Below, piece by piece: positions 1,297 to 35,792 of a stretch of DNA of 37,048 nucleotides; position 1 is the stretch's first letter; each line of letters begins with the position of its first letter. The DNA lies in contig DAHXON010000027.1 of NCBI GenBank assembly GCA_027364875.1, forward strand, positions 1 through 37,048, read 5' to 3'. This stretch comes from Chloroflexota bacterium (lineage in GTDB: Bacteria > Chloroflexota > Limnocylindria > Limnocylindrales > CSP1-4). Both the position numbers and the translations under genes were made by a program. A model generated the notes under the pieces. The model worked only from the letters and a program-made list of their open reading frames with translations, was not told the DNA's origin and ran no database searches.

Positions 1297-3000
1297 ATGG
1301 AACTGCCAGCGCACAGAAATTCGAAGGTCGCCCGGTCGAGTACGGAATCGTCGCCGGCCGATCCGCCGACGGCGCTGCGGAGCTTCGCAGCCGCGCTCGT
1401 CGAGCGATTCCCGATCCGCGCTACCGCGGTCGTCGCCGCCGTGGCCATCGCCTACAACTACTCGTTGGAGACGCTGGTCCGCGGCCTCGATCTCCAAACG
1501 CCGCTGGCGTATCTCGCGCTCGTGCCGCCCATCGCGGTCCTTCTTGGTGCGGCCAACTTCCGGCTGCAGCCCAACCTGCCCGCCATTCACGACCGGCAGG
1601 TCGACTGGATCGTCGGGCTCCTGCTCATCGGCATCGCGGCTGCTTTCACGGTGCTGCTGCCGTCCGCCTATTCCGCCGAGTACTGGCTCCGCCGCTTTGA
1701 CATGCTCGGCCTGCCGTTCTTTGCCGCGGGCGTGATCTCCCTGGTGTACGGCGTTCGCCGGCTGTGGGCCATGCGCTGGGCCGTCGCGTTCCTGCTGCTC
1801 GCGTGGCCCGATCCGTACGTATCGGCCCTGGCCTCGCTCATCGGTGCTTCGACGGACGCCGCTCTCACGGCCGTCACCGCGACGCTCGTCGTGCTGCCAT
1901 TCGGTCATCCGCTCGGCAACGGCGTGTTCCTGATCGACAACGCCTCCGGCCCGTTCAGTCTGGCCGTGAGCTCGGCCTGCAGTGGCGTCAACAGCCTCGT
2001 CGGCTTCCTGATCGTGGGTGCGGCGCTCAACACGGTATTCCGCGGCGGCCTGCTGCGAAGGCTCGCCTGGCTCGCGACCGGCCTGATCGTCGTCGGCGCG
2101 CTGAACGTGTTTCGGATCGACCTCATCTTCGTGGCGGGCTGGCTCCTCGGCGAACCGTTCGCCATCGACGTGCTACACCCTGTGGCCGGCGTGATCGTCT
2201 TCGGCGTGGGGGCGCTCGCGATGCTCGCGATGGCGCCATTCTTCGGACTCGAGATTCCGAGACCCGAACCAGTGCGCAGAGCCATCACGGACCAGGTCCA
2301 ACACAGAGCAAACATTCGGCCGTCGCACCAGGTCCTTCGTCCCGCGGCCGCCATCGGTGCAAGCCTGCTGCTCGCGATAGGCATGGGTCTTCCGAACTCG
2401 GCATTCGCGAGCTACGACTCGTTGATCAACGCATTTGGCACGCCCACGCTCGGCACCATCGACCCGGCCACAATCTCCGTGACGGGCTGGCAGGCGTCGA
2501 AGCCCAGTGATTTCGGCCAGGCGACGCAGTATTTCGGCCCGAACGGTACGTGGGAGCGGATCGCCTTCGCGGCCGCGGCGCCTCCGCCAAACACGCCCTC
2601 GACGGTCTATCTCGATGTGATCCGGACTGACGATTCCGGGACGCTGGCGGCCTATGGCGTGGAGGCCTGCTACGACTTCCACGGCTTCGCGCAGGTCGAC
2701 TCGGCAACGGCGGACGTAGGGGCGGGCGTGGTCGCGAAGGTTGCCAGCTACCGAAGCCCGATCGGGGGCACGGATTGGTCGATCCTGTGGTGGGAGTGGC
2801 CCTACAACGCCGGCGGCCAAACGAGATTCGAGCGCATCGTCCTGCTCGCCCCACTCGCCGAGGCGGACCAGCCGGGGGGCGTGACCACGACCGAGACATT
2901 TGCCGCGAGCCGAACGACCCTGATCGGTCTCGCCCGGGCCGTCACAGCCGAAGCGATTCGGTACCTCGCGCCGACTCCCGACCCGGCGAGCCAGGAGTAG
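1297..3000 (+). CDS. Exosortase/archaeosortase family protein with C-terminal extracytoplasmic extension (possibly EpsI-like)
   Basis: Multi-TM protein with SSACSGVNSL (Cys), GALNVFRIDL (Arg) and LHPVAG (His) motifs of exosortases; start chosen at ATG 1297. Confidence 0.85.
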   Translation: MELPAHRNSKVARSSTESSPADPPTALRSFAAALVERFPIRATAVVAAVAIAYNYSLETLVRGLDLQTPLAYLALVPPIAVLLGAANFRLQPNLPAIHDRQVDWIVGLLLIGIAAAFTVLLPSAYSAEYWLRRFDMLGLPFFAAGVISLVYGVRRLWAMRWAVAFLLLAWPDPYVSALASLIGASTDAALTAVTATLVVLPFGHPLGNGVFLIDNASGPFSLAVSSACSGVNSLVGFLIVGAALNTVFRGGLLRRLAWLATGLIVVGALNVFRIDLIFVAGWLLGEPFAIDVLHPVAGVIVFGVGALAMLAMAPFFGLEIPRPEPVRRAITDQVQHRANIRPSHQVLRPAAAIGASLLLAIGMGLPNSAFASYDSLINAFGTPTLGTIDPATISVTGWQASKPSDFGQATQYFGPNGTWERIAFAAAAPPPNTPSTVYLDVIRTDDSGTLAAYGVEACYDFHGFAQVDSATADVGAGVVAKVASYRSPIGGTDWSILWWEWPYNAGGQTRFERIVLLAPLAEADQPGGVTTTETFAASRTTLIGLARAVTAEAIRYLAPTPDPASQE

Positions 3001-3007
3001 ACCAGCC

Positions 3008-4420
3008 ATGACTCCAACTCTGACGACCGCCAATGTGGGGCTCGAACCCTGGGCCGACGAATCCGCCTCGCGGACCTTGACCCGGCCGCAGCAGGTCGCG
3101 GGCCTGGGCGTCGCCGCCGCCATGTTGGTCTCGCTGCTGGTGTGGCCGCTCGCGACGGGCATTCTCCTGATCGCCGCGGCCACCTTGGCCTATCTGCTCG
3201 CGCTCATCTACCGGCTCATGTCCTTCTGGCTCGCGATCCGGCGGCCGGAGCTGATCCACGTAACGGACGAAGAGGCGCGGGCCGTGCCCGTCCGCCGTTT
3301 GCCGGTCTACACGGTCCTCGTGCCGGCCTATCGCGAGCCGTCGGTGATTGCCCAGCTGATCGATCGGCTGCGGGCGATGGAGTATCCCAGGAGCCGGCTC
3401 GACATCCGCCTCCTGCTCGAAGAGGACGATGAGGAGACGATCGCGGCGGCCCGTGCCGTTCAGATGGGCCCCGAGTTCACGGTCGTGATCGTTCCCCACG
3501 GCATCCCCAAGACGAAACCGAAGGCCTGCAACTATGGCCTCGTCGGGGCGCGAGGAGAGATCGTCACCGTCTACGACGCGGAGGACCGCCCCGACCCGCT
3601 GCAGCTTCGGCGGGCCGTTGTGGCGTTCGAGCGGGCGGACCCCTCGGTCGCCTGTCTGCAGGCGAAGCTTTCCTACTACAACGCGGGCCAGAACATGCTC
3701 ACGCGCTGGTTCACGATCGAATACGGCATGTGGTTCTCGAGCCTCCTTCCGGGTCTGGTTTCGCAGCGGGGCCCGTTGCCGCTCGGCGGGACTTCCAACC
3801 ACTTTCGAGCCGACATACTTCGCCAGGTTCGAGGCTGGGATCCCTACAACGTGACCGAGGACGCGGATCTCGGCATCCGTCTGGCCCGGCGGGGATTTCA
3901 GACGCGCGTGCTCGACAGTACGACCCTCGAAGAGGCGAACAGCGACGTCATCAACTGGATCAAGCAGCGATCGCGCTGGTACAAGGGTTACATGCAGACG
4001 TGGCTCGTCCACGCCCGACATCCCCGCACGCTTCGGCGCGAGCTGGGCTGGCGCGGCTTCCTGGGCTTCAACCTGTTCATTGCGGGCACGCCATTGCTCG
4101 CGCTCGTGAACCCGCTGTTCTGGGCGATGACCGCGCTCTGGTTCCTCGTCCACCCGCCGGTCGTGCTGCAGCTGTTCCCGGCGTGGCTCTACTACCTGGG
4201 TCTGTTCGTGATGATCGTCGGAAACATGTCGCTCTTCTACAGCTGGCTCGTGAGCGCGAGGCTCGTTGGCTGCCGCGATCTGGTCGTCGCGTCTCTGCTC
4301 GTGCCCATCTACTGGGCACTCATGTCATTGGCGGTCACCAAGGCGGTCGTTCAGCTCGTTTCGGCTCCGTCGTTCTGGGAGAAGACCGTTCACGGACTCG
4401 ACAAGCCCGAGACGGTCTAG
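3008..4420 (+). CDS. Membrane glycosyltransferase family 2
   Basis: TVLVPAYREPSVI, YDAEDRPDP, TEDADLGIRLARRG, QRSRWYKGYMQTW (QxxRW) motifs plus N- and C-terminal TM helices. Confidence 0.88.
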   Translation: MTPTLTTANVGLEPWADESASRTLTRPQQVAGLGVAAAMLVSLLVWPLATGILLIAAATLAYLLALIYRLMSFWLAIRRPELIHVTDEEARAVPVRRLPVYTVLVPAYREPSVIAQLIDRLRAMEYPRSRLDIRLLLEEDDEETIAAARAVQMGPEFTVVIVPHGIPKTKPKACNYGLVGARGEIVTVYDAEDRPDPLQLRRAVVAFERADPSVACLQAKLSYYNAGQNMLTRWFTIEYGMWFSSLLPGLVSQRGPLPLGGTSNHFRADILRQVRGWDPYNVTEDADLGIRLARRGFQTRVLDSTTLEEANSDVINWIKQRSRWYKGYMQTWLVHARHPRTLRRELGWRGFLGFNLFIAGTPLLALVNPLFWAMTALWFLVHPPVVLQLFPAWLYYLGLFVMIVGNMSLFYSWLVSARLVGCRDLVVASLLVPIYWALMSLAVTKAVVQLVSAPSFWEKTVHGLDKPETV

Positions 4421-24521: not shown

Positions 24522-26441
24522 GTGACGCCCGACGCAGGCAAGCAGCCTGCAGGCGTCGCTCGTGCGGAGGGCCGCCAGGGCTTCCGCTCGCTCTTTGAGA
24601 ACATGCATGAGGGTCTGGCTCTCTGTCAGATGATCTATGCGGACGGCAAGCCGATCGACTGGGTCTACCTCGACGTTAATGCGGCTTTCGAATCCCAGAC
24701 CGGACTCGAGGGCGTGGTGGGCCGACGCGTATCCGAGGTCATCCCGGGCCTCCGTGAGTCTGACCCGGACCTTTTCGCTACGTACGGTCGTGTCGCCGCC
24801 GGCGGGCCGTCGGAACGTTTCGAGACTCACGTTGCCGCCCTCGACATGTGGTTCTCGGTTGCCGCGTACTGTCCGGCGCCGGGCAAGTTCATGGCCGTAT
24901 TCGACGTGATCACCGAGCGCGTTCGAGCCGAGCGAGCACTGCGGAGCGCCAACGCGCTGTTGTCGCGAACCGAATCCGTTGCCCACGTGGGAAGCTGGCG
25001 GGTTCCGCTCGATGGCGGCATGCCGACCTGGTCGGCCGAGATGTACCGCATCTTCGGTCTCGATCCGTCCGCAGCAGCTTCCGATACGGCCGCGATCTGG
25101 CAAAAGGCGATCCATCCCGACGATGCACCCGCAGTCGCGGCCGCGCGAGCCCGAACGCTCGCCGGGGAAGTCCTCGCCATCGAGTACCGGATCATCTGTC
25201 CCAACGGCGATGTCCGCTGGCTGCACGGCGAGAGCGAACAGGAACTGGACGAGGGTGGATCCCCGATCGCTATCGTCGGCTTCGTTCAGGACGTCACCGA
25301 TCGCAAGAACGCGGAAGCGTCGCTCGCGCAATCGCAGAAGATGGAGGCAATAGGCCGTCTCGCCGGCGGTGTCGCTCATGACTTCAACAACCTTCTCACC
25401 GCAATCGGTGGCTACGCCCGGCTCCTCGAGTCCGACCTCGCCGCCGGATCCGGGAGTGCGGAGGATGCTGCCGAGATCCGGCGGGCTGCCGACCGCGCTG
25501 CAGTCCTCACAGCGCGATTGCTGGCATTCGCAGGCCGCCAGGACGTGAGGCCCGAGGCGATCGATCTCTCATCAGCGGTGAACCAGATGCTGCCCATGCT
25601 GAGGCGGATGATCCCCGAGCGGATCCAGGTTGTGGCGGACCTCCAAAACGTCGCCGCGGTCGAAGCCGATCCGGGCGAGGTGGATCAGATCATCCTCAAC
25701 CTGGCCATCAACGCCGCCGATGCCATACCGGATATCGGGCGACTCTCGATCGAGACAGAGATGGTCGAGCACGGCACGGCCTACGTTCTCAGCCACCCCG
25801 GTCGCGGCACCGGCCCCCACGTGCGGCTGCGCGTGTCCGACACCGGAATCGGGATGGACGAGAAGACGCGCTCGCGGATTTTCGAGCCCTTCTTCTCGAC
25901 CAAGCCTGTCGGTCGGGGCACAGGTCTTGGCCTGGCCACCGTCTACGGCGTAGTGACTCGCATCGGCGGTTCCATCGAGGTCAACTCTGCCACCGGGCTT
26001 GGCACTGTGATCGAGGTAGACCTGCCTTCGTCTGGTGTGCTGCCCGCCTCATCCCCCGAGCCCGCCTCTATGGCTCGCGCTGAGGGAACCGAGCGAATCA
26101 TGCTCGTCGAGGACGAGGACAGAGTCCGCCAGTTCACGGCGGCCGTCCTCGCCCGTCTCGGGTACGCGGTCCTGCAGGCGGCGAGCCCTGGGGAAGCGTT
26201 GAGGGTCGCGCCTACCGACTACGACGTCCTCGTCACCGACGTCGTCATGCCGGACCTGAACGGAGCCGAGCTCGCTCGAAAAGTGAGAGACATGCGGCCC
26301 GATCTACCTGTTCTGTTCATGTCCGGCTACTCACATGGGACGGCGGACCTACCAGTCGAGCCCGGGTTCGCTCTACTGGCCAAGCCGTTCACTCCGGTCG
26401 CCCTGGGGAGGGCAATCCGGCGACTTCTCGAAAGAGTCTGA
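24522..26441 (+). CDS. PAS-domain hybrid sensor histidine kinase with C-terminal receiver domain
   Basis: PAS repeats, [35 protein letters not shown], receiver [13 protein letters not shown]...[13 protein letters not shown]...LLAKPF. Confidence 0.92.
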
Positions 26442-26678: not shown

Positions 26679-27808
26679 ATGAGCGATCCGTTGTCCAGAC
26701 TCGGTTCGGGGCCTCCATCTGGCGGCCACCGACGCCAGGTCCTCGTCGGCTTCTTGCTCGTTCTGTTTGTCGTCGTGGTGTCTGCGTGCTCCAATACCGG
26801 GAGCCCGCGCCGGTCACGCCCACGCCTGCGGGCGTTGAGACGATCTCGCCTTCTGGCAGCACGACCTCGCCGCTCCTAACCAGCTCGCCCACACCCGAGG
26901 CCCAGCAGACGATCTCGCCCGAGCCCAGTGCGCTGCCCTCGGACACCCCCACCAACGGTCCTACGCCCCACAATCCCAAACCCTGGCTCGCCTGGAAGCC
27001 GAAGGGCAAGGGTGAAGTGCTGAAATCCATCAACTTGCCGCCGCCCTGGATCGGCGGCACGCGGACGACGGAGGACTTCGGGGTATACACGCCGCCCGGC
27101 TACAACCCTCAGGGGACACGTCACTACCCGGTAGTCTACGAAGCGCCCAGCCCATTCAAGTTGTGGAACAACGAGACGAACGCCGTCCAGGCGCTCGACT
27201 CGCTCATCGACGCGGGGACCATCCCGGCCATGATCGTCGTCTTCATCGACGAGTGGGGCGCACCGTACCCGGACACAGAGTGCGCCGACTCGGTCGACGG
27301 CAAGATGTGGATGGAGACCTTCATCTCCAGAACCGTCGTGGACTACGTCGACGCGCACTACCTCACGATCCGCAAGTCCGCAGCCCGGGCAGTCATGGGT
27401 ATGTCTACGGGTGGCTTCTGTGCGGCGATGCTCACCCTCCGACATCCGAGCGTCTTCGGTTCCTCGATTTCGTTTTCTGGCTACTACCAGGCGGGGACCG
27501 TGAGCGCCACGTCCGCCCGTCCCTTCGGCAATCAGCCTGCCGTCCTGCAAGCCCACTCGCCTCTGTATCTGGTTGGCGAGATCCCGCCGGCCGACCGCTC
27601 GAGCCTCTACTTCGTCGTCGTCGCCGATCCGAACCAGGCGTACTACGGACCGCAAGCTACAGCCTTCGAGAAGGCCCTCAAGGCGGACAAGTACCCGTAC
27701 ACCCCGATCGTCTCGGCCTATGGGCACGGCTGGCCCCAGGTCCGCCACGAATTCCAAGGAGCCCTGGAGCACTGGGCTGCCAGGCTCGCGTTCGAGGGGG
27801 TCCTCTAG
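26679..27808 (+). CDS. Extracytoplasmic esterase-family alpha/beta hydrolase (paralogue 1); lipoprotein signal is in a different frame from the catalytic domain
   Basis: 26679 frame encodes ...VLVGFLLVLFVVVVSACSNTG lipoprotein signal; 26786..27808 (-1 frame) encodes Thr/Pro linker + esterase with GMSTGGFCAAML. Confidence 0.7.
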
Positions 27809-28204
27809 GCGGATTGGCTGCTACACGCGACAGTCTTCGACGCCCAAGATCCGAGGCATATCGGTCACCCGGCCTCGTCTTGCGCACTTCGATGAGGGCC
27901 TCGGCTCGCCCATCGTAGCGGGCTGTGAGGCTGGCGCCGGGCCCGTCGTTCTCACCTTGCTGGAGGGTCAGATAGCAGATTCCACAAACCAATTCGATCA
28001 GGGGCCCGACGATCTTGCTCCTGGCTTGCCGATCGATCCGATGCGGGGAGCCAGACGCGAGGACGTAGACATCGTTGGCCGGCCCGCAGGTCGATGGAAC
28101 CATGATGATCACAAGAGCGTCTCTTCAGATAGACTTCAGGGGTGACCCGGAGGGGCTACCCGTGATTCAGTATGTTGTGAGCAGGGGTTCTGGGTAGGGT
28201 TCAT

Positions 28205-29863
28205 GTGAACTCGAGGGTGGGTGGTCAGGGTTCTGGTCGAAAGGCGCGCGTGGCTCTGCTCGCCCTTCTCCGTCGTCGCCAAGTCGAGTCGATGAGGCCA
28301 CTTGGAGCCGTGCTTCGGCGGTTTCTCAGCCGGACGCCGCTGATCAATGCGACCGTTGTGTCAGTCGTAGTCTCGGCTGCCATCGTCTCCGGGGCGACGG
28401 ACACCAGCAACACCACGCTCGTGCTCATGGGATTCGATGCAGACCGCGCCCAGCTGATCACGGCGCTGCTGGTAGGTGGGGTCGCCGCCGCGGCGGCTGC
28501 GCTAGCCACGGGCAGGATCGGCCAGGCAACTCTCGGCGGCCTGGTCGGTTTCGCCGTTCTCTTCGGCCGCACTTTCCTCCACGAGACCCGTGATGCGCTG
28601 GCCTCGAACGGGGCCTACGGTTCTTTCGATCTCAGTGGGTGGCTGCTGACGTTCCTGACCCTGATCACAATCGGAGTGATCGCGAGTTGGGTCGGAGGTG
28701 CGGCCGCGTCTACTCTTCGCCCGGGGCTCATAGAGGCCGTGTCAGCCGTCGATGCATCCATTCGGAGCAGGCGCCTTGCGCGCCGGCTGTTCGAGCGGCC
28801 CCTGATCGTGGTTCTTGTGCTGGCGCTTCTGTTGACAACTGTCCCGGTTTTCGGGGACATGGTGAACTACACGCCAGACTCTCGGATGCTCGATGGCGGA
28901 CCGCCGCCGGCGGGACTGATCCCCGTCGAATCCTCCGAGTCCCCTGGGCCGGCCGCCGCAACCGCGTCTCCCGAGGAATCCACCTTAGCAACCGCCAGCC
29001 CACTGGTCCACTCAACCGACTCGCAGCTCAGCCCGATGCCCCGGCCGTCGCGGCCACCGTCCGGGACTGGCGCTGTCACGTCGGCCGCGCTGCCGGCCCC
29101 GTGGAAGGCCGGCTCCGTCTCGACCGCTGAGATCGCCATCTACACCCCGCCCGGCTACGCCGCGGGAGGCCCGCGCCGCTATCCGGTCTTGTACGAGGCC
29201 CCCACAAGCTATGAGGCATGGGACAGGGCCACCAACGTCCGGTCGGTCCTAGACACGCTCATTGACGCTGGCGCCATTCCGCCGATGATCGCGGTCTTCA
29301 TCGACGGCAGCCGCGGACCCTACCCCGACTCCGAATGCGCCGATTCGGTTGACGGCCGGGAGTGGATGGACACCCACATAAGCGACACCGTGGTTTCCTA
29401 TGTGGATTCACATTTCGCAACCATCGCCCGCAGGGAAGCTCGCGCCGTCATCGGCTTCTCGCAAGGCGGCTACTGCGCAGCAATACTCGCGCTCCGCCAC
29501 CCGACCGTCTATGGAACCTCGATCCCGATCTCCGGCTATTTCCGGGCAGCCAAGGGGGACGCGAGTTCGTGGCTTCCGTTTGGCAGGAATGCGGCCGCGC
29601 TCGCCGCCGCTTCACCTATGGACGTCGCCCCCAAGATCCCGCGAAACGAGCGAAAAGCGCTGCTTTTCATCGTCGTCGCCTCGCCTGGCCAACCGTTCTA
29701 CGGTGCCGAGGCCGCTGCGTTCGAGAATCTTCTGGCCAAGCAGGGTTATCGATACCTGACTCGCGATTCCAGCATGTCGCACGGATGGGTTCAGGTCCGG
29801 GAGCAGTTCCCGGCTGCCGTCGAAGCTTGGGCGTCGCATCTGGCCGAGGAGGGCGTGGCGTGA
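28205..29863 (+). CDS. Multi-TM domain fused to esterase-family alpha/beta hydrolase (paralogue 2)
   Basis: N-terminal ~5 TM; DMVNYTPDSRM; GFSQGGYCAAILALRHP; SHGWVQVREQF; exact start uncertain. Confidence 0.82.
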   Translation: MNSRVGGQGSGRKARVALLALLRRRQVESMRPLGAVLRRFLSRTPLINATVVSVVVSAAIVSGATDTSNTTLVLMGFDADRAQLITALLVGGVAAAAAALATGRIGQATLGGLVGFAVLFGRTFLHETRDALASNGAYGSFDLSGWLLTFLTLITIGVIASWVGGAAASTLRPGLIEAVSAVDASIRSRRLARRLFERPLIVVLVLALLLTTVPVFGDMVNYTPDSRMLDGGPPPAGLIPVESSESPGPAAATASPEESTLATASPLVHSTDSQLSPMPRPSRPPSGTGAVTSAALPAPWKAGSVSTAEIAIYTPPGYAAGGPRRYPVLYEAPTSYEAWDRATNVRSVLDTLIDAGAIPPMIAVFIDGSRGPYPDSECADSVDGREWMDTHISDTVVSYVDSHFATIARREARAVIGFSQGGYCAAILALRHPTVYGTSIPISGYFRAAKGDASSWLPFGRNAAALAAASPMDVAPKIPRNERKALLFIVVASPGQPFYGAEAAAFENLLAKQGYRYLTRDSSMSHGWVQVREQFPAAVEAWASHLAEEGVA

Positions 29864-29970
29864 ACCGTGGCCAGACTCTGACATCCATTCCCGAGGCGGC
29901 GGTAGAGCAGCCGGGCCGCAGACCACGCGGCTGTCATCCGTCTCGCGCGATCGCGGGGATGCTGCGATGA
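29860..29970 (+). CDS. 36-aa ORF bridging two genes through GTGA and ATGA overlaps
   Basis: GTG 29860 overlaps stop of paralogue 2; TGA 29968-29970 overlaps ATG 29967 of next gene. Confidence 0.35.
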   Translation: MNRGQTLTSIPEAAVEQPGRRPRGCHPSRAIAGMLR

Positions 29971-31706
29971 CGGTGATCCGGACAGGAGAGACCCGGGGCC
30001 GGCCTCGCGGCCGCCGGCCATTCCGTATGGCGGTCCGGGCCTCGGAGTCCGCGCCCGTGATTCTCCTGGCCGTCAGCACCCTGGCCGCCGCAGCGTACTT
30101 CTTCACGTTTCTCCGGCCCGTGGCCAATTCGCTGGATGTGATCCTGCCTATCGATCCGTCCGACACGGATCCAAACCTCGCGGTCCTCTCGGCGGTCGGC
30201 CTCGCAGCGTTGACAGTCGGGCTTTTCCGCGGCAAAGCAGTGGCCTGGTGGTTCGTCATGGCCACGCTGACAGCGTCGCTGCTCGTCCAGGCCGCGGCTT
30301 TCTCACATCCGCTCGGGGTGGTCATTGTTGGCGGTTTGCTGGCCATTCTTCTCGCGGACCGGCGCCGGTACGTAGTCGAGACGGGAATCGGCTCACGTCG
30401 GATCATCGTCGGGTTGATCCTCGTGGGCGTCGTCGTCATCGGTCTCGAGGCCTCCTTGGTCATCGCCGCGACCGGAGACTGGCCCCGACCCCTGTCGGCC
30501 GCCAGCGACATCACCGCGGCCATCGGTGACGCGTTCGGTCTGAGCGATGACGGCGCCAGCCAGGTCCTGCGGCAGACCAGCCGCGAGGCAATCCTGGGCC
30601 TCCTGCTCTTCGCTTCGCGGTTGCCCATTGTGCTGGCCGCGCTCGGGGTCCTGAGCCGCGTGCCCGAGCCGCCTCGCGATCCCACGACGACGGCTCGCGC
30701 TCGGGAGATTGCCGAGCGCTACGGCTGCGGCGCCCTCCTGCCGTTCCAGCTCGGCGATGACAAGCTCATCTACTCCCCGGCCGACGCCGAGGGACTTGTG
30801 GTCTACGGCCTTGTCGGGCGGACCGCTGTGGTGCTGGGCGACCCGATCGGTTCGCCCGAAGCCGCGCCCAGGGTATTCGGCGATTTCCTGGAGCAGTGCC
30901 ACAGGCTAGACCGCGTCCCGATCGTCTACCAGGCCGGCGTCGTCGGACGCTCGATGCTGCGTGGGGCTGGCTTCCGGCTCTTCAAGGTGGGCGAGGAAGC
31001 TCTCATCGACCTGTCAGGCTTCGACACGAGCGGACCGAGGCGCGCGAACCTGCGCCACACGATCACTCGCTGCCGCAAGGACGGTGTGGTCATCCGTTGG
31101 TTCCCGAGCGGCATCCCGGCCGACGAGGCTGCTGTGCTTGACGATCTCGCGGAGATCGATGCCAGCTGGCACGAGAAGGCCGGCCCTCGACTCGGTTTCA
31201 CCGTCAGCCATTTCGACCGGGCAACACTGGCATGGCAACCAACCTCGGTTGCGATCGGCCCAAACGGGCGTGCGCTGGCCTTCACCACCTACCGCAAGAC
31301 CGGCGTGGACGGAGGTTGGGTTCTGGACCTGATGCGCCGCGGTTGCGACGGGCCCCCAGGCGCTGTGGAAGCATGTATATCGGAGGCTGCCATGGCCTTC
31401 CGCGACGTCGGGGCGAAGACCCTCTCGCTTGGGCTCGCGCCACTTGCCGGCCTCGATGTCTCGAGCTCCGCGTTCGAGGAGCGACTGCTGGCCGTCGGCG
31501 GCAGGCTCGTCCGCCGCTGGTATGACGTGACGGGCCTGGCCCGCTTCAAGAACAAGTTCGACCCGTACTGGATACCGCGCTATGGCGCCATCCGCCACCG
31601 CCGCGACGTTGTCGGTTTTGTGGTCAGCCTGCTTTGGATCCACCTCGCCGGCGCCGTCCGCCTTCCCGGTCGCTCGCGCGAGGAGAGGGAGGCCGCAGCC
31701 GCATGA
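29967..31706 (+). CDS. MprF-like membrane protein with DUF2156 (aminoacyl-phospholipid synthase) domain
   Basis: N-terminal TM block, then LPFQLGDDKLIYSPADAEGLVVYGLVGRTAVVLGDPIGSPE...FKNKFDPYWIPRYGA. Confidence 0.85.
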   Translation: MTVIRTGETRGRPRGRRPFRMAVRASESAPVILLAVSTLAAAAYFFTFLRPVANSLDVILPIDPSDTDPNLAVLSAVGLAALTVGLFRGKAVAWWFVMATLTASLLVQAAAFSHPLGVVIVGGLLAILLADRRRYVVETGIGSRRIIVGLILVGVVVIGLEASLVIAATGDWPRPLSAASDITAAIGDAFGLSDDGASQVLRQTSREAILGLLLFASRLPIVLAALGVLSRVPEPPRDPTTTARAREIAERYGCGALLPFQLGDDKLIYSPADAEGLVVYGLVGRTAVVLGDPIGSPEAAPRVFGDFLEQCHRLDRVPIVYQAGVVGRSMLRGAGFRLFKVGEEALIDLSGFDTSGPRRANLRHTITRCRKDGVVIRWFPSGIPADEAAVLDDLAEIDASWHEKAGPRLGFTVSHFDRATLAWQPTSVAIGPNGRALAFTTYRKTGVDGGWVLDLMRRGCDGPPGAVEACISEAAMAFRDVGAKTLSLGLAPLAGLDVSSSAFEERLLAVGGRLVRRWYDVTGLARFKNKFDPYWIPRYGAIRHRRDVVGFVVSLLWIHLAGAVRLPGRSREEREAAAA

Positions 31707-33337
31707 AGCCATTGCTCGCGCCAGACGACCTAGCTGAGAACTCTTTTCCGAAGGCCCACAGGTGGAGCATGGTCGTGAACGCCGCCGTGGTGGCGGCCGT
31801 GGCAGCGCTCGTGGTCGTCGCCGCGGTCGTTTCTGGGACCATCGACTCCTACCGCCTCACCCTTCTGTTCATGGGCTTTGATGAGGATCGCGCACAGCTC
31901 ATTACGTCCCTATTGGTGGCGACAACGGCAGCCGCCGCGGCAACTCTCGTCACCAACAAGAACCGTCAGGCGACACTCTCGGGCCTTGCGAGCTTTGCCG
32001 CGCTATTCGGCTACACGTTCCTTCGCGAGACCCGGGGAGCTCTGCAATCGACAGGCGCCGATGGCTCTTTCGACCTCAGTGGCTGGCTGTCCACGCTGGT
32101 TGCACTGCTGATGGCGGGCCTGATCTCGAGCTGGTCCGGAGCCACTCTCGCCCAAGCGCTACGCCCAGGACTAGTAGGGGCAGGGTCGACCGTCCTTGGC
32201 GCGGTCCGGCGTCGGCGGTCAGACCGTGAGCTTGTGAGAGGGCCCCTCAAGGTAGCCGTCGTTCTGACCCTTCTGGTCTTCACGGCGCCGATCTTCGGCG
32301 ACATGGTCAACTACACACCCGACTCGAGGATGCCCCACGGCGGAGCGCCGCCGGTTGGACTCATTCCCATGGAACCCACCCAGTCGCCGACGGTACCTGT
32401 TCCTATGGAACAGACAGCGTCGCCGACGCTCGCCTCGAACCCACCGCCGCCTGGGCCTCCGACGACAAGCCCAGCGCCCACACCTACGCGGTCCCTGCCG
32501 TCCAACGAGAGGCCATGGCTGGCGTGGCGACCATCGGGTACTGGATCGGTAGTGACCGTGGATCTACCGGCCCCCTGGAGGGATGGCTCCGCCACGACCG
32601 AGAACGTCGGTATCTACACCCCGCCCGGGTACGACCCGCATGGCAACAGGAGATACCCGGTCGCCTACGAGGCGCCTTTCGACTATTCCCTGTGGGATTC
32701 GAGCGTCAACATCAGAGTTGCGCTCGACGCCATGATCGACAGGGGAGCGGTTCCGGCGATCATCGTCGTCTTCATCAACGCCTGGCGTGCTCCGATCTAC
32801 GACACCGAATGCGCGGACTCAGTCGATGGTCGCCAGTGGTTTGACGCGTTCATCAGCCGTACGGTCGTCTCATACGTGGACTCGAAGTATCGGACGATCG
32901 CCCGGGCTGATGCCCGAGCGTTCATGGGTTTCTCGGAGGGGGGCTACTGCGCGGCGATCTTGCCTCTGCGCCACCCGACGGTGTTTGGCACAGCCATCCC
33001 GATCTCGGGCTACTTCCGGGCTGGTGTAGGCGACGCGTCTGCAAAGCTCCCGTTCGGCGGTGACAAAGCCGCACTGGCCGCGGCCTCTCCCATGGTGGTC
33101 GCGACCGAGTTGCCGGCAGCGGAGCGGTCGACGCTCTTTTTCATCGTGGTAGCCAAGCCGGGCGAACCCTTCTTCGGTACCGAGGCCGTCGCATTCGAGC
33201 AGCTCCTAGCCACGGAGGGATACCGCTACGTGGCCCTGGACGCTAGGGTCGGGCACGGTTGGGATCAGGTGCGCCAGGAGCTCCCGGTCGCCCTGGAGGC
33301 CTGGGCGCGGCAACTTGTCACGGTAGGTGCGTTCTAG
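31703..33337 (+). CDS. Multi-TM domain fused to esterase-family alpha/beta hydrolase (paralogue 3)
   Basis: ATGA overlap with DUF2156 gene; DMVNYTPDSRM; GFSEGGYCAAILPLRHP; GHGWDQVRQEL. Confidence 0.85.
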   Translation: MKPLLAPDDLAENSFPKAHRWSMVVNAAVVAAVAALVVVAAVVSGTIDSYRLTLLFMGFDEDRAQLITSLLVATTAAAAATLVTNKNRQATLSGLASFAALFGYTFLRETRGALQSTGADGSFDLSGWLSTLVALLMAGLISSWSGATLAQALRPGLVGAGSTVLGAVRRRRSDRELVRGPLKVAVVLTLLVFTAPIFGDMVNYTPDSRMPHGGAPPVGLIPMEPTQSPTVPVPMEQTASPTLASNPPPPGPPTTSPAPTPTRSLPSNERPWLAWRPSGTGSVVTVDLPAPWRDGSATTENVGIYTPPGYDPHGNRRYPVAYEAPFDYSLWDSSVNIRVALDAMIDRGAVPAIIVVFINAWRAPIYDTECADSVDGRQWFDAFISRTVVSYVDSKYRTIARADARAFMGFSEGGYCAAILPLRHPTVFGTAIPISGYFRAGVGDASAKLPFGGDKAALAAASPMVVATELPAAERSTLFFIVVAKPGEPFFGTEAVAFEQLLATEGYRYVALDARVGHGWDQVRQELPVALEAWARQLVTVGAF

Positions 33338-33644: not shown

Positions 33645-34955
33645 TCAGCCCCCGACGTCCGGAATCTCGAACCAGAAGACCGCTCCACCCCCATCACGGC
33701 TCGCCGCGCCGTATGTGCCGCCGTGGGCCTGTGCCGCGCCGGCCACGATCGCGAGGCCGAGGCCCGTGCCTGGTTCGGTGACCGACGAGCCACGATGGAA
33801 CGGCTGGAAGAGCTCGTGCGCTGAGTTGTTGCCGATGCCGGGCCCGCGGTCGAGGACCTCCGCCCGTAGGCTCCGCCCTGCCTCGCGCTCGATGATCCGG
33901 CACTGCACGAGAACCTCGCCCTGGCCGCCGTGAACGATCGCATTGGTGATCAGGTTGTTCAATCCGTGCTCGATCCTGGTGCGGTCGACGAGCACCGAAG
34001 CGGCAGGCGCCTCGATGCGGACACGAACCCCGCGCTCGCGGGCCAGCGGCTGAAGACTCCGGACCACGCCGGTCACGAGCTGCCGCAGGTCGACTGACGC
34101 CCGGGCGACGGAGGATGCATCCACTCCGGGGGAGGCAAGCTCCAAGAGGCTCGTCGTCAGCTCCGTAAGCCTGACGATGTCGCCCTGGGCTTCGCGCACG
34201 GCTTCGCGGTACTCGGCGAGCGAGTCGCTCCCGTCGACGACGTCGAGCTCGGCGCGCAGCGACGCAAGCGGCGTCCGAAGCTCATGGGAGGCCATAGCCA
34301 CGAAGCGACGCTGTCGTTCGACGCTGTCGGCGATACGATCGAGCATGCCGTTCAGGGTTGCAGTGAGCCGCCACACCTCATCGTGGCCCCCGGTCATCCT
34401 GAGCCGGCGAGCCAGGTCCGCGGAATCGAGCGCGGCGGCCTCGTCGCTGAGCCGGTGGAGGGGCTGCAGCGCGCGGCCTCCCAGAAACCAGCTGCCGACC
34501 AGGGCGATCGAGCCCGCGACCAGGCCGACGCCAAGAAGGGCTCGCTCCAGGGCGGCCTGGGCGTCGGTCACCGATTGCAGGTCCACGCCGGTGACGACGA
34601 TAGAGCCGTCGGCGGCGACGTCCGTCCGGACGAGGTATTGTCGGCCGCCGACCGACTGGACGCCGGCGGTCGGTCGCAGACCGGACGGCGTATCGGAGCT
34701 GGCATCGAGAACCTGGCCCGACGGAGAGAAGATGGCTGCGAAGACGCCCGGCGCGGAGCGATTGGTCTCCTGGAGTCCGAACTGGCCGTTGTTCTCGAGG
34801 GATGCCAGGACTCCCGAAGATCGCGTCTGGAGTGCCGTGTCCAGCGAGGCCTGCAGGGACTGACCCATCTGCCACCAGACCACGACTCCCGCCGCGAGCA
34901 GCGTCGCAAGGATGCCTGCCGCAAAGGCGATCGTGAACCGCAGGCGGATCGTCAT
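33645..34955 (-). CDS. HAMP-domain sensor histidine kinase
   Basis: MASHELRTPLASLRAEL, NNLITNAIVHGG, GTGLGLAIVAGAAQAHGG. Confidence 0.92.
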   Translation of the reverse strand: MTIRLRFTIAFAAGILATLLAAGVVVWWQMGQSLQASLDTALQTRSSGVLASLENNGQFGLQETNRSAPGVFAAIFSPSGQVLDASSDTPSGLRPTAGVQSVGGRQYLVRTDVAADGSIVVTGVDLQSVTDAQAALERALLGVGLVAGSIALVGSWFLGGRALQPLHRLSDEAAALDSADLARRLRMTGGHDEVWRLTATLNGMLDRIADSVERQRRFVAMASHELRTPLASLRAELDVVDGSDSLAEYREAVREAQGDIVRLTELTTSLLELASPGVDASSVARASVDLRQLVTGVVRSLQPLARERGVRVRIEAPAASVLVDRTRIEHGLNNLITNAIVHGGQGEVLVQCRIIEREAGRSLRAEVLDRGPGIGNNSAHELFQPFHRGSSVTEPGTGLGLAIVAGAAQAHGGTYGAASRDGGGAVFWFEIPDVGG

Positions 34956-35650
34956 GGCGCCGGCTTCGATGGCGGCCTTGGTACGGTTCTCAAGGCGTAA
35001 CCGGAGCCACGGACGGTCTGGATCCAGGGACCGCCGGGATTGGCGGCGAGCTTGCGGCGCAGAACCCCCACGTACACGTCGATGATCCGCGGATCGCCCT
35101 CGAATGCCCAGTCCCAGACCTGTTCGATGATCACGGCGCGGCTGAGCACCTCATCGGCTCGCCGGGCGAAGAACTCGAGCAGCGAGAACTGTCGCCCCGC
35201 AAGGTCCAGCTCCCCTGAGGCGAGAGTGGCGCGATGCGCGGCCGGATCGATCGTCAGATCGCCAGCTGTGATCAGGGTGGTCTTGCCGCTGGGGCCGCGG
35301 CGATCGAGAGCTCGAATCCGCGCCTCCAGCTCGGCAAACGCGAAGGGCTTCACGAGGTAGTCGTCGGCGCCCACGTCCAGACCGCGCACGCGGTCCCTCA
35401 CGCTGTCACGTGCCGTCAGCATCAGGACCGGGACCGGATTGGAGGCTGCGCGCAGATCTCGGCAGAAGTCGAAGCCGTCGCCGTCCGGGAGCATCACGTC
35501 GAGCACGACCACGTCGAAGCGAGCTTCTGAAAGGTGCCAGCCCGCCTCCTCCAGCGTCGGCGCGATCTCCGCGACGTGACCGGATCTCCTGAGGCCACGG
35601 CCCAGGAGCGTGCCGAGCCGGGGATCGTCTTCGACCACCAGGATTTTCAC
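34952..35650 (-). CDS. OmpR-family response regulator
   Basis: VKILVVEDDPRLGTLL, VVLDVMLPDGDGFD, DYLVKPFAFAEL, GSGYALRTV; GTG start at 35650 preferred. Confidence 0.92.
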   Translation of the reverse strand: MKILVVEDDPRLGTLLGRGLRRSGHVAEIAPTLEEAGWHLSEARFDVVVLDVMLPDGDGFDFCRDLRAASNPVPVLMLTARDSVRDRVRGLDVGADDYLVKPFAFAELEARIRALDRRGPSGKTTLITAGDLTIDPAAHRATLASGELDLAGRQFSLLEFFARRADEVLSRAVIIEQVWDWAFEGDPRIIDVYVGVLRRKLAANPGGPWIQTVRGSGYALRTVPRPPSKPAP

Positions 35651-35792
35651 CGGTCCAGTATGCCCATCGAGTGCGAAAGAAATGTGAATCCGGGCCAAGG
35701 CGCCATGGACGCACGATTTACCGTCGTTTCACAGGCCGTGGAGCAGTCTGGGTGCGGTCGGGCAGATGACCCGGCCAGCACAAGGAGACGAC

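Follow-up and report, generated by a model that had tools for sequence, protein, structure and literature searches.

The window analysed here, a stretch of 37,048 nucleotides from a Chloroflexota bacterium, is one contig (C128) of a 3.8 Mb genome that is 90% complete, and between 26.7 and 33.3 kb it holds three genes for putative esterases (E1, E2 and E3) arranged around a gene for a putative aminoacyl-lipid synthase (D1). Aminoacylated membrane lipids affect both the charge of the cell surface and its resistance to cationic peptides and antibiotics; to our knowledge, enzymes that take the amino acid off again have been established biochemically in only a few bacteria. The E1-E2-D1-E3 array is far beyond what chance would produce, and comprises the following features:

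26679 to approximately 26800, forward strand: fragment of an open reading frame (ORF) with a lipoprotein-type signal (MSDPLSRLG...VVVVSACS), out of frame with E1 (analysis of frame and of third-position GC content).
26786 to 27808, forward strand: E1, a PF00756 esterase in an open frame without a membrane domain; Ser207 (27404) and His314 (27725) (Pfam, 69 bits; motif positions; groups with the esterase E4 described below).
28205 to 29863, forward strand: E2, a five-helix membrane domain, a linker and a PF00756 esterase; Ser419 (29459) and His526 (29780) (Pfam, 65 bits; alignments; motif positions).
29860 to 29970, forward strand: a 36-codon ORF bridging E2 and D1 (sequence).
29967 to 31706, forward strand: D1, the synthase half of an MprF-type aminoacyl-lipid synthase (transmembrane helices and LPG_synthase_C), without the N-terminal flippase domain (Pfam PF09924, 188 bits; NCBIfam; PDB matches).
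31703 to 33337, forward strand: E3, a five-helix membrane domain, a linker and a PF00756 esterase; Ser411 (32933), His518 (33254) and GFDxDR (31874) (Pfam; AlphaFold2; motif positions).

A first-pass annotation, made from the sequence alone, had placed the synthase gene, there called DUF2156, between the second and third esterase genes and joined it to both by 4-bp overlaps. The position is correct and the stop codon of D1 does overlap the start of E3 in a true ATGA; E2 and D1, however, do not overlap, as 103 bp separate the stop of E2 from the first start codon of D1 (29967). The error probably came from the 36-codon ORF, which overlaps E2 by GTGA and D1 by ATGA, 4 bp each. No homologue of this ORF was found in the related loci searched, and it may represent mere translational coupling or chance. 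About 400 bp lie between E1 and E2. The same annotation had also given E1 a lipoprotein signal, which does not hold, because the signal (from 26679) and the esterase ORF lie in different reading frames; the frame indicated by third-position GC content changes at about 26780-26800, and the two frames had been fused. E1 thus lacks what defines a bacterial lipoprotein, a signal peptide with a lipobox in the reading frame of the mature protein. The frame break (window 26679-26830) either arose in the assembly or is a true lesion that makes E1 a pseudogene; single-helix copies of the esterase are present in relatives.

D1 matches Pfam PF09924 at 188 bits against a cut-off of 27.5, covering positions 21-297 of the 298 in the profile, and its catalytic domain aligns with those of LpiA, BlMprF and the Pseudomonas aeruginosa alanyl-phosphatidylglycerol synthase in the PDB (E about 1e-47 to 1e-55), the homology to LpiA/MprF taking in the membrane helices beside the synthase domain. 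The active-site signatures of an MprF-type synthase (LPG_synthase_C) are present, with LRxTxxR, DLMR and FKxKFxPxWxPRY aligned with those of 7f47 and 6lvf, and DLMR and FKxKxxPxW with those of 4v36. Judged by this homology, D1 probably attaches amino acids to membrane lipids. It corresponds only to the second half of MprF (positions 334-835 of the NCBIfam MprF model, at 222 of the 600 bits required), a shortfall which is partly due to the missing flippase half, and it also falls below the LysX cut-off. With no PF03706 flippase domain in the same protein, D1 is not a bifunctional MprF. Proteins with PF03706 are encoded elsewhere in the genome, but they are also found in genomes without the synthase, and a PF03706 flippase was rejected as a third partner since its presence in 38 of 41 relatives, irrespective of the synthase, is uninformative. 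The structure model of D1 is of moderate confidence and no argument is built on it.

All three esterases exceed the curated PF00756 cut-off of 22 bits (E1 69, E2 65 and E3 52 bits), and in the alignment E2 and E3 are 48-50% identical to E1. As the first-pass annotation had reported, the three domains share the motifs YTPPGY, ECADSVDG, GxSxGG[FY]CAA and HGWxQVR, and two of them, E2 and E3, carry an N-terminal membrane domain that ends in GDMVNYTPDSRM (E2 residue 217, E3 residue 199). The nucleophile motif GxSxGG and the histidine expected of PF00756 are present, and across 22 sequences Ser411, His518, Cys370, Cys416 and Asp375 (E3 numbering) are invariant. The AlphaFold2 model of E3, with a mean predicted local distance difference test (pLDDT) score of 80 over the whole model, consists of five membrane helices (16-43, 61-84, 87-115, 125-169 and 179-202) joined through a disordered linker (198-260) to an alpha/beta hydrolase that is predicted well. 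The N-terminus and the helix 4-5 loop of the membrane domain carry basic charge, and the predicted topology therefore suggests an N-in/C-out orientation with the esterase domain outside the cell, where the two invariant cysteines (C370 and C416) would fit an exported domain. The membrane domain has two invariant motifs, GFDxDR..LI and FxxETxxA, and their predicted position on the outer face suggests that this domain may be more than an anchor.

Using Foldseek, the best structural neighbours of the esterase domain were found to be feruloyl esterases of carbohydrate esterase family 1 (CE1), and the mycolyltransferase-like proteins PS1 and MPT51 match the esterase profile at 1e-7 and 2e-6, respectively. 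In Pseudomonas the synthase gene PA0920 is paired with the gene of a hydrolase, PA0919, that reverses the modification, a parallel which the first-pass annotation had drawn. No VirJ-type family occurs among the Pfam matches of the window esterases (E up to 0.1) and no AcvB/VirJ/PA0919-type chain among their PDB matches (E up to 0.001); membership of the AcvB/VirJ family thus finds no match, and because E1, E2 and E3 show no detectable kinship with AcvB or PA0919 the parallel survives as a functional analogy only.

The pairing of esterase and synthase is repeated elsewhere in the same genome. On contig C157 a second synthase gene (58% identical to D1) is followed, with a GTGA overlap, by a gene for a membrane-domain esterase, E4, and a stand-alone esterase of this kind, E5, lies on contig C200, bringing the genome to five family esterases and two synthases. 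The stop codon of the synthase and the start of the esterase overlap by 4 bp as NTGA in 11/11 genus-level units with a downstream esterase, these two included. The first-pass annotation had proposed a genome survey that would count against the pairing if the two genes failed to co-occur; they do co-occur. Among 41 related genomes, with the synthase counted when above its cut-off, it was found in 11 and the membrane-domain esterase in 12, both being present in 11, the esterase alone in one, the synthase alone in none and neither in 29 (Fisher p = 4e-9, or 3e-6 within the family; both values are nominal, because related genomes are not independent). In the sole genome with an esterase and no synthase (G001) the contig that carries the esterase is 3.8 kb long and the gene lies close to its start, which means that the synthase may be missing from the assembly. 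Other lineages place the esterase first, either as esterase-synthase-esterase (L060, L066 and L069) or as esterase-synthase (L067 and L068). No conserved third gene was found beside synthase and esterase. In the window the array is flanked by an OmpR-type two-component pair (33645-35698, reverse strand) and a hybrid histidine kinase (24522-26441); these were rejected as parts of the module, as the other units do not share the flanking genes of the window.

Beyond these relatives, a family esterase adjoins the synthase in 8 of the 25 synthase regions fetched from other Chloroflexota, four from the same class (three of them from the same family) and four (L143, L145, L147 and L150) from families of the phylum that are less closely related; an FDxxRAQLI-type membrane-domain motif is seen in L145 and L147, and L150 has an altered form of it. 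When a profile of the membrane-domain esterases was run over 151 genomes, the synthase was found to adjoin 14/18 high-scoring family esterases (>95 bits, own genome left out) and 0/52 of the next weaker PF00756-type matches (p = 2e-11). On plasmids of Rubrobacter radiotolerans and Streptomyces sp. CdTB01 the gene directly upstream of the synthase encodes a PF00756 esterase, and on that of Chroococcidiopsis thermalis it encodes an alpha/beta hydrolase-fold protein. A flippase-type gene follows the synthase in Rubrobacter (L073 6476-7519, PF03706 tested) and in Chroococcidiopsis (L151 6035-6994, by annotation), an arrangement which amounts to a split MprF preceded by an esterase. The plasmid MprF genes of Priestia, Kineococcus, Arthrobacter, Pseudonocardia, Cnuibacter, Sinorhizobium and Streptomyces sp. 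NBC_00984 have no annotated adjoining esterase, and the pairing is therefore typical of only some types of synthase. The candidate eraser family accompanies the synthase in several classes of Chloroflexota, and relatives of it adjoin the synthase in Actinomycetota and Cyanobacteriota. The architecture, for which the first-pass annotation was aware of no described system, is accordingly not unique to the window, and a published pair, sco3396-sco3397, can be set beside it.

The number of esterase copies per genome ranges from one to about six, fragments blurring the exact counts. A tree built from 53 esterase domains joins E1 to E4 from the second unit, E2 to L040 and E3 to L081, and on this ground a recent tandem triplication was rejected. 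Synthase-linked and stand-alone copies interleave in this tree, with 7 changes compared with 16.8 for shuffled labels. One stand-alone clade of membrane-domain esterases comprises L012 905-2479, L086, L087 and L088, of which the last three adjoin genes whose products are secreted proteins with CAP or Ig-like (Big) domains; in L083 a LytR-CpsA-Psr gene (1936-3348) adjoins a stand-alone copy.

Gene-level pairing, homology, co-occurrence, predicted topology and the conserved serine and histidine are what the analysis shows. We think it probable, with some reserve, that the locus is a module for the synthesis and turnover of aminoacyl-lipids, which works like LpiA-AcvB or the aminoacyl-phosphatidylglycerol synthase with AhyD, using a hydrolase of another family. 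In this module D1, in the cytoplasmic membrane, would use aminoacyl-tRNA to ester-link an amino acid to a glycerolipid (phosphatidylglycerol or diacylglycerol), and the product would be flipped to the outer leaflet by some further protein. There E2 and E3, held by their five-helix domains, would cleave the ester with their Ser-His active site, giving back the unmodified lipid and a free amino acid, so that surface charge could be set up and reset; E1 would be the third copy, with a single domain and perhaps broken. The substrates, the direction of the reaction, the flipping step and the regulation are inferred, and hydrolysis itself is suggested by synteny and precedent. The first-pass annotation had already considered such a system with membrane-tethered hydrolases, and it is the best-supported reading because of the synthase homology, the strict synteny with 4-bp overlaps, the phyletic co-occurrence and the biochemical precedents (LpiA-AcvB, PA0919 and AhyD). 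Four points weigh against it. The position after the seventh strand that usually holds the catalytic acid is not conserved (K/N/D/Q/S/A/E in the 22 sequences); the nearest solved structures are feruloyl and acetylxylan esterases, not enzymes that hydrolyse lipids; a genome with one or two synthases can have about six esterase paralogues, many of the paralogues standing alone, which exceeds the need of simple turnover; and the remaining regions of the 25, among them those that match the synthase model best, have no family esterase next door, so that canonical-looking MprF genes of the same phylum lack it.

One possibility is that the esterases are transferases which pass an aminoacyl (or fatty acyl) group from an outer-leaflet lipid to a glycan, a teichoic-type polymer or a protein, with a paralogue for each acceptor. 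Transfer has to be kept in view because of the number of paralogues and the distant mycolyltransferase kinship (PS1 and MPT51), and the old divergence among E1, E2 and E3 and the stand-alone copies beside genes for secreted CAP/Big-domain and LytR-CpsA-Psr proteins would suit it. However, hydrolases of the feruloyl-esterase type match better and AcvB, VirJ and AhyD, the partner enzymes known for aminoacyl-lipid synthases, hydrolyse, which is why we prefer hydrolysis and consider transfer unlikely. Its fuller form, in which serine enzymes with a membrane domain move synthase-made aminoacyl groups to several surface acceptors, the paralogues being acceptor-specialised and the lipid a donor rather than just a charge modifier, appears somewhat less likely again. 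We would place at that same lower level the proposal that the esterases act on ordinary esters of the cell wall or the environment, as CE1 enzymes do, and merely have an envelope-stress operon in common with the synthase: although their best structural neighbours speak for it, adjacency to the synthase follows the sub-family and not the weaker PF00756-type matches, it holds over three phyla and two gene orders, and neither a conserved third gene nor shared flanking genes mark such an operon. That D1 uses aminoacyl-tRNA on an acceptor other than a lipid (a small molecule, a peptide or a polymer), for later processing by the esterases, is very improbable, as its homology spans the membrane helices next to the LpiA/MprF synthase domain, even though it scores below the MprF and LysX cut-offs and MprF relatives with other acceptors, such as sterols and diacylglycerol, exist (PMC10580965).

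The turnover module proposed here can be compared with several known systems. One is LpiA-AcvB/VirJ of Agrobacterium, where a synthase gene likewise lies beside that of an extracytoplasmic Ser-His hydrolase which reverses the modification (PMC13197417, PMC13135905); AcvB hydrolyses the lysyl-phosphatidylglycerol made by LpiA, with a proposed Ser-His dyad (PMC13197417), and it touches the membrane and binds LpiA (PMC13197417, PMC13135905). Unlike AcvB/VirJ and PA0919, the window esterases match PF00756 and no VirJ model, occur in multiple copies and, in E2 and E3, carry five helices. RakPGS-AhyD of Enterococcus also combines an aminoacyl-phosphatidylglycerol synthase with a hydrolase: a hydrolase is co-induced with the synthase in E. 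faecalis, and in E. faecium AhyD, paired with MprF2, cleaves the ester that holds the aminoacyl group (PMC13123819, citing Smith 2013). AhyD may be the closest relative of the window esterases, and if it belongs to the same family their novelty falls to that of a new member of a described kind. In Streptomyces coelicolor sco3396, labelled Pfam Esterase, adjoins sco3397 (mprF), both being vancomycin-induced class I sigma-E targets that are wholly sigma-E dependent (PMC6767563); our reading offers a testable assignment for genes of this type. The esterase of the Streptomyces CdTB01 plasmid shares the TEC and GGYC motifs with the window proteins, but it has fewer and different N-terminal helices and about 26% identity. 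CE1 feruloyl and acetylxylan esterases have the same fold and Ser-His core (template modelling score, TM-score, to the target up to 0.81), whereas they act on plant polysaccharides, lack this membrane domain and have no link to a lipid synthase. The Antigen 85/PS1 mycolyltransferases are also PF00756-type surface enzymes acting on lipid esters, with a weaker match, but they transfer mycolic acids. A synthase with an outer-face eraser is thus a kind already known from AcvB, PA0919 and AhyD. The removal of amino acids from lipids is here probably, by analogy with those systems, the task of a different, largely uncharacterised type of enzyme that has been multiplied. What is new is the five-helix PF00756 architecture, its strict coupling to the synthase over the Chloroflexota and its multiplication, which draw attention to the conserved membrane domain (GFDxDR..LI and FxxET) and to the expansion of the paralogues.
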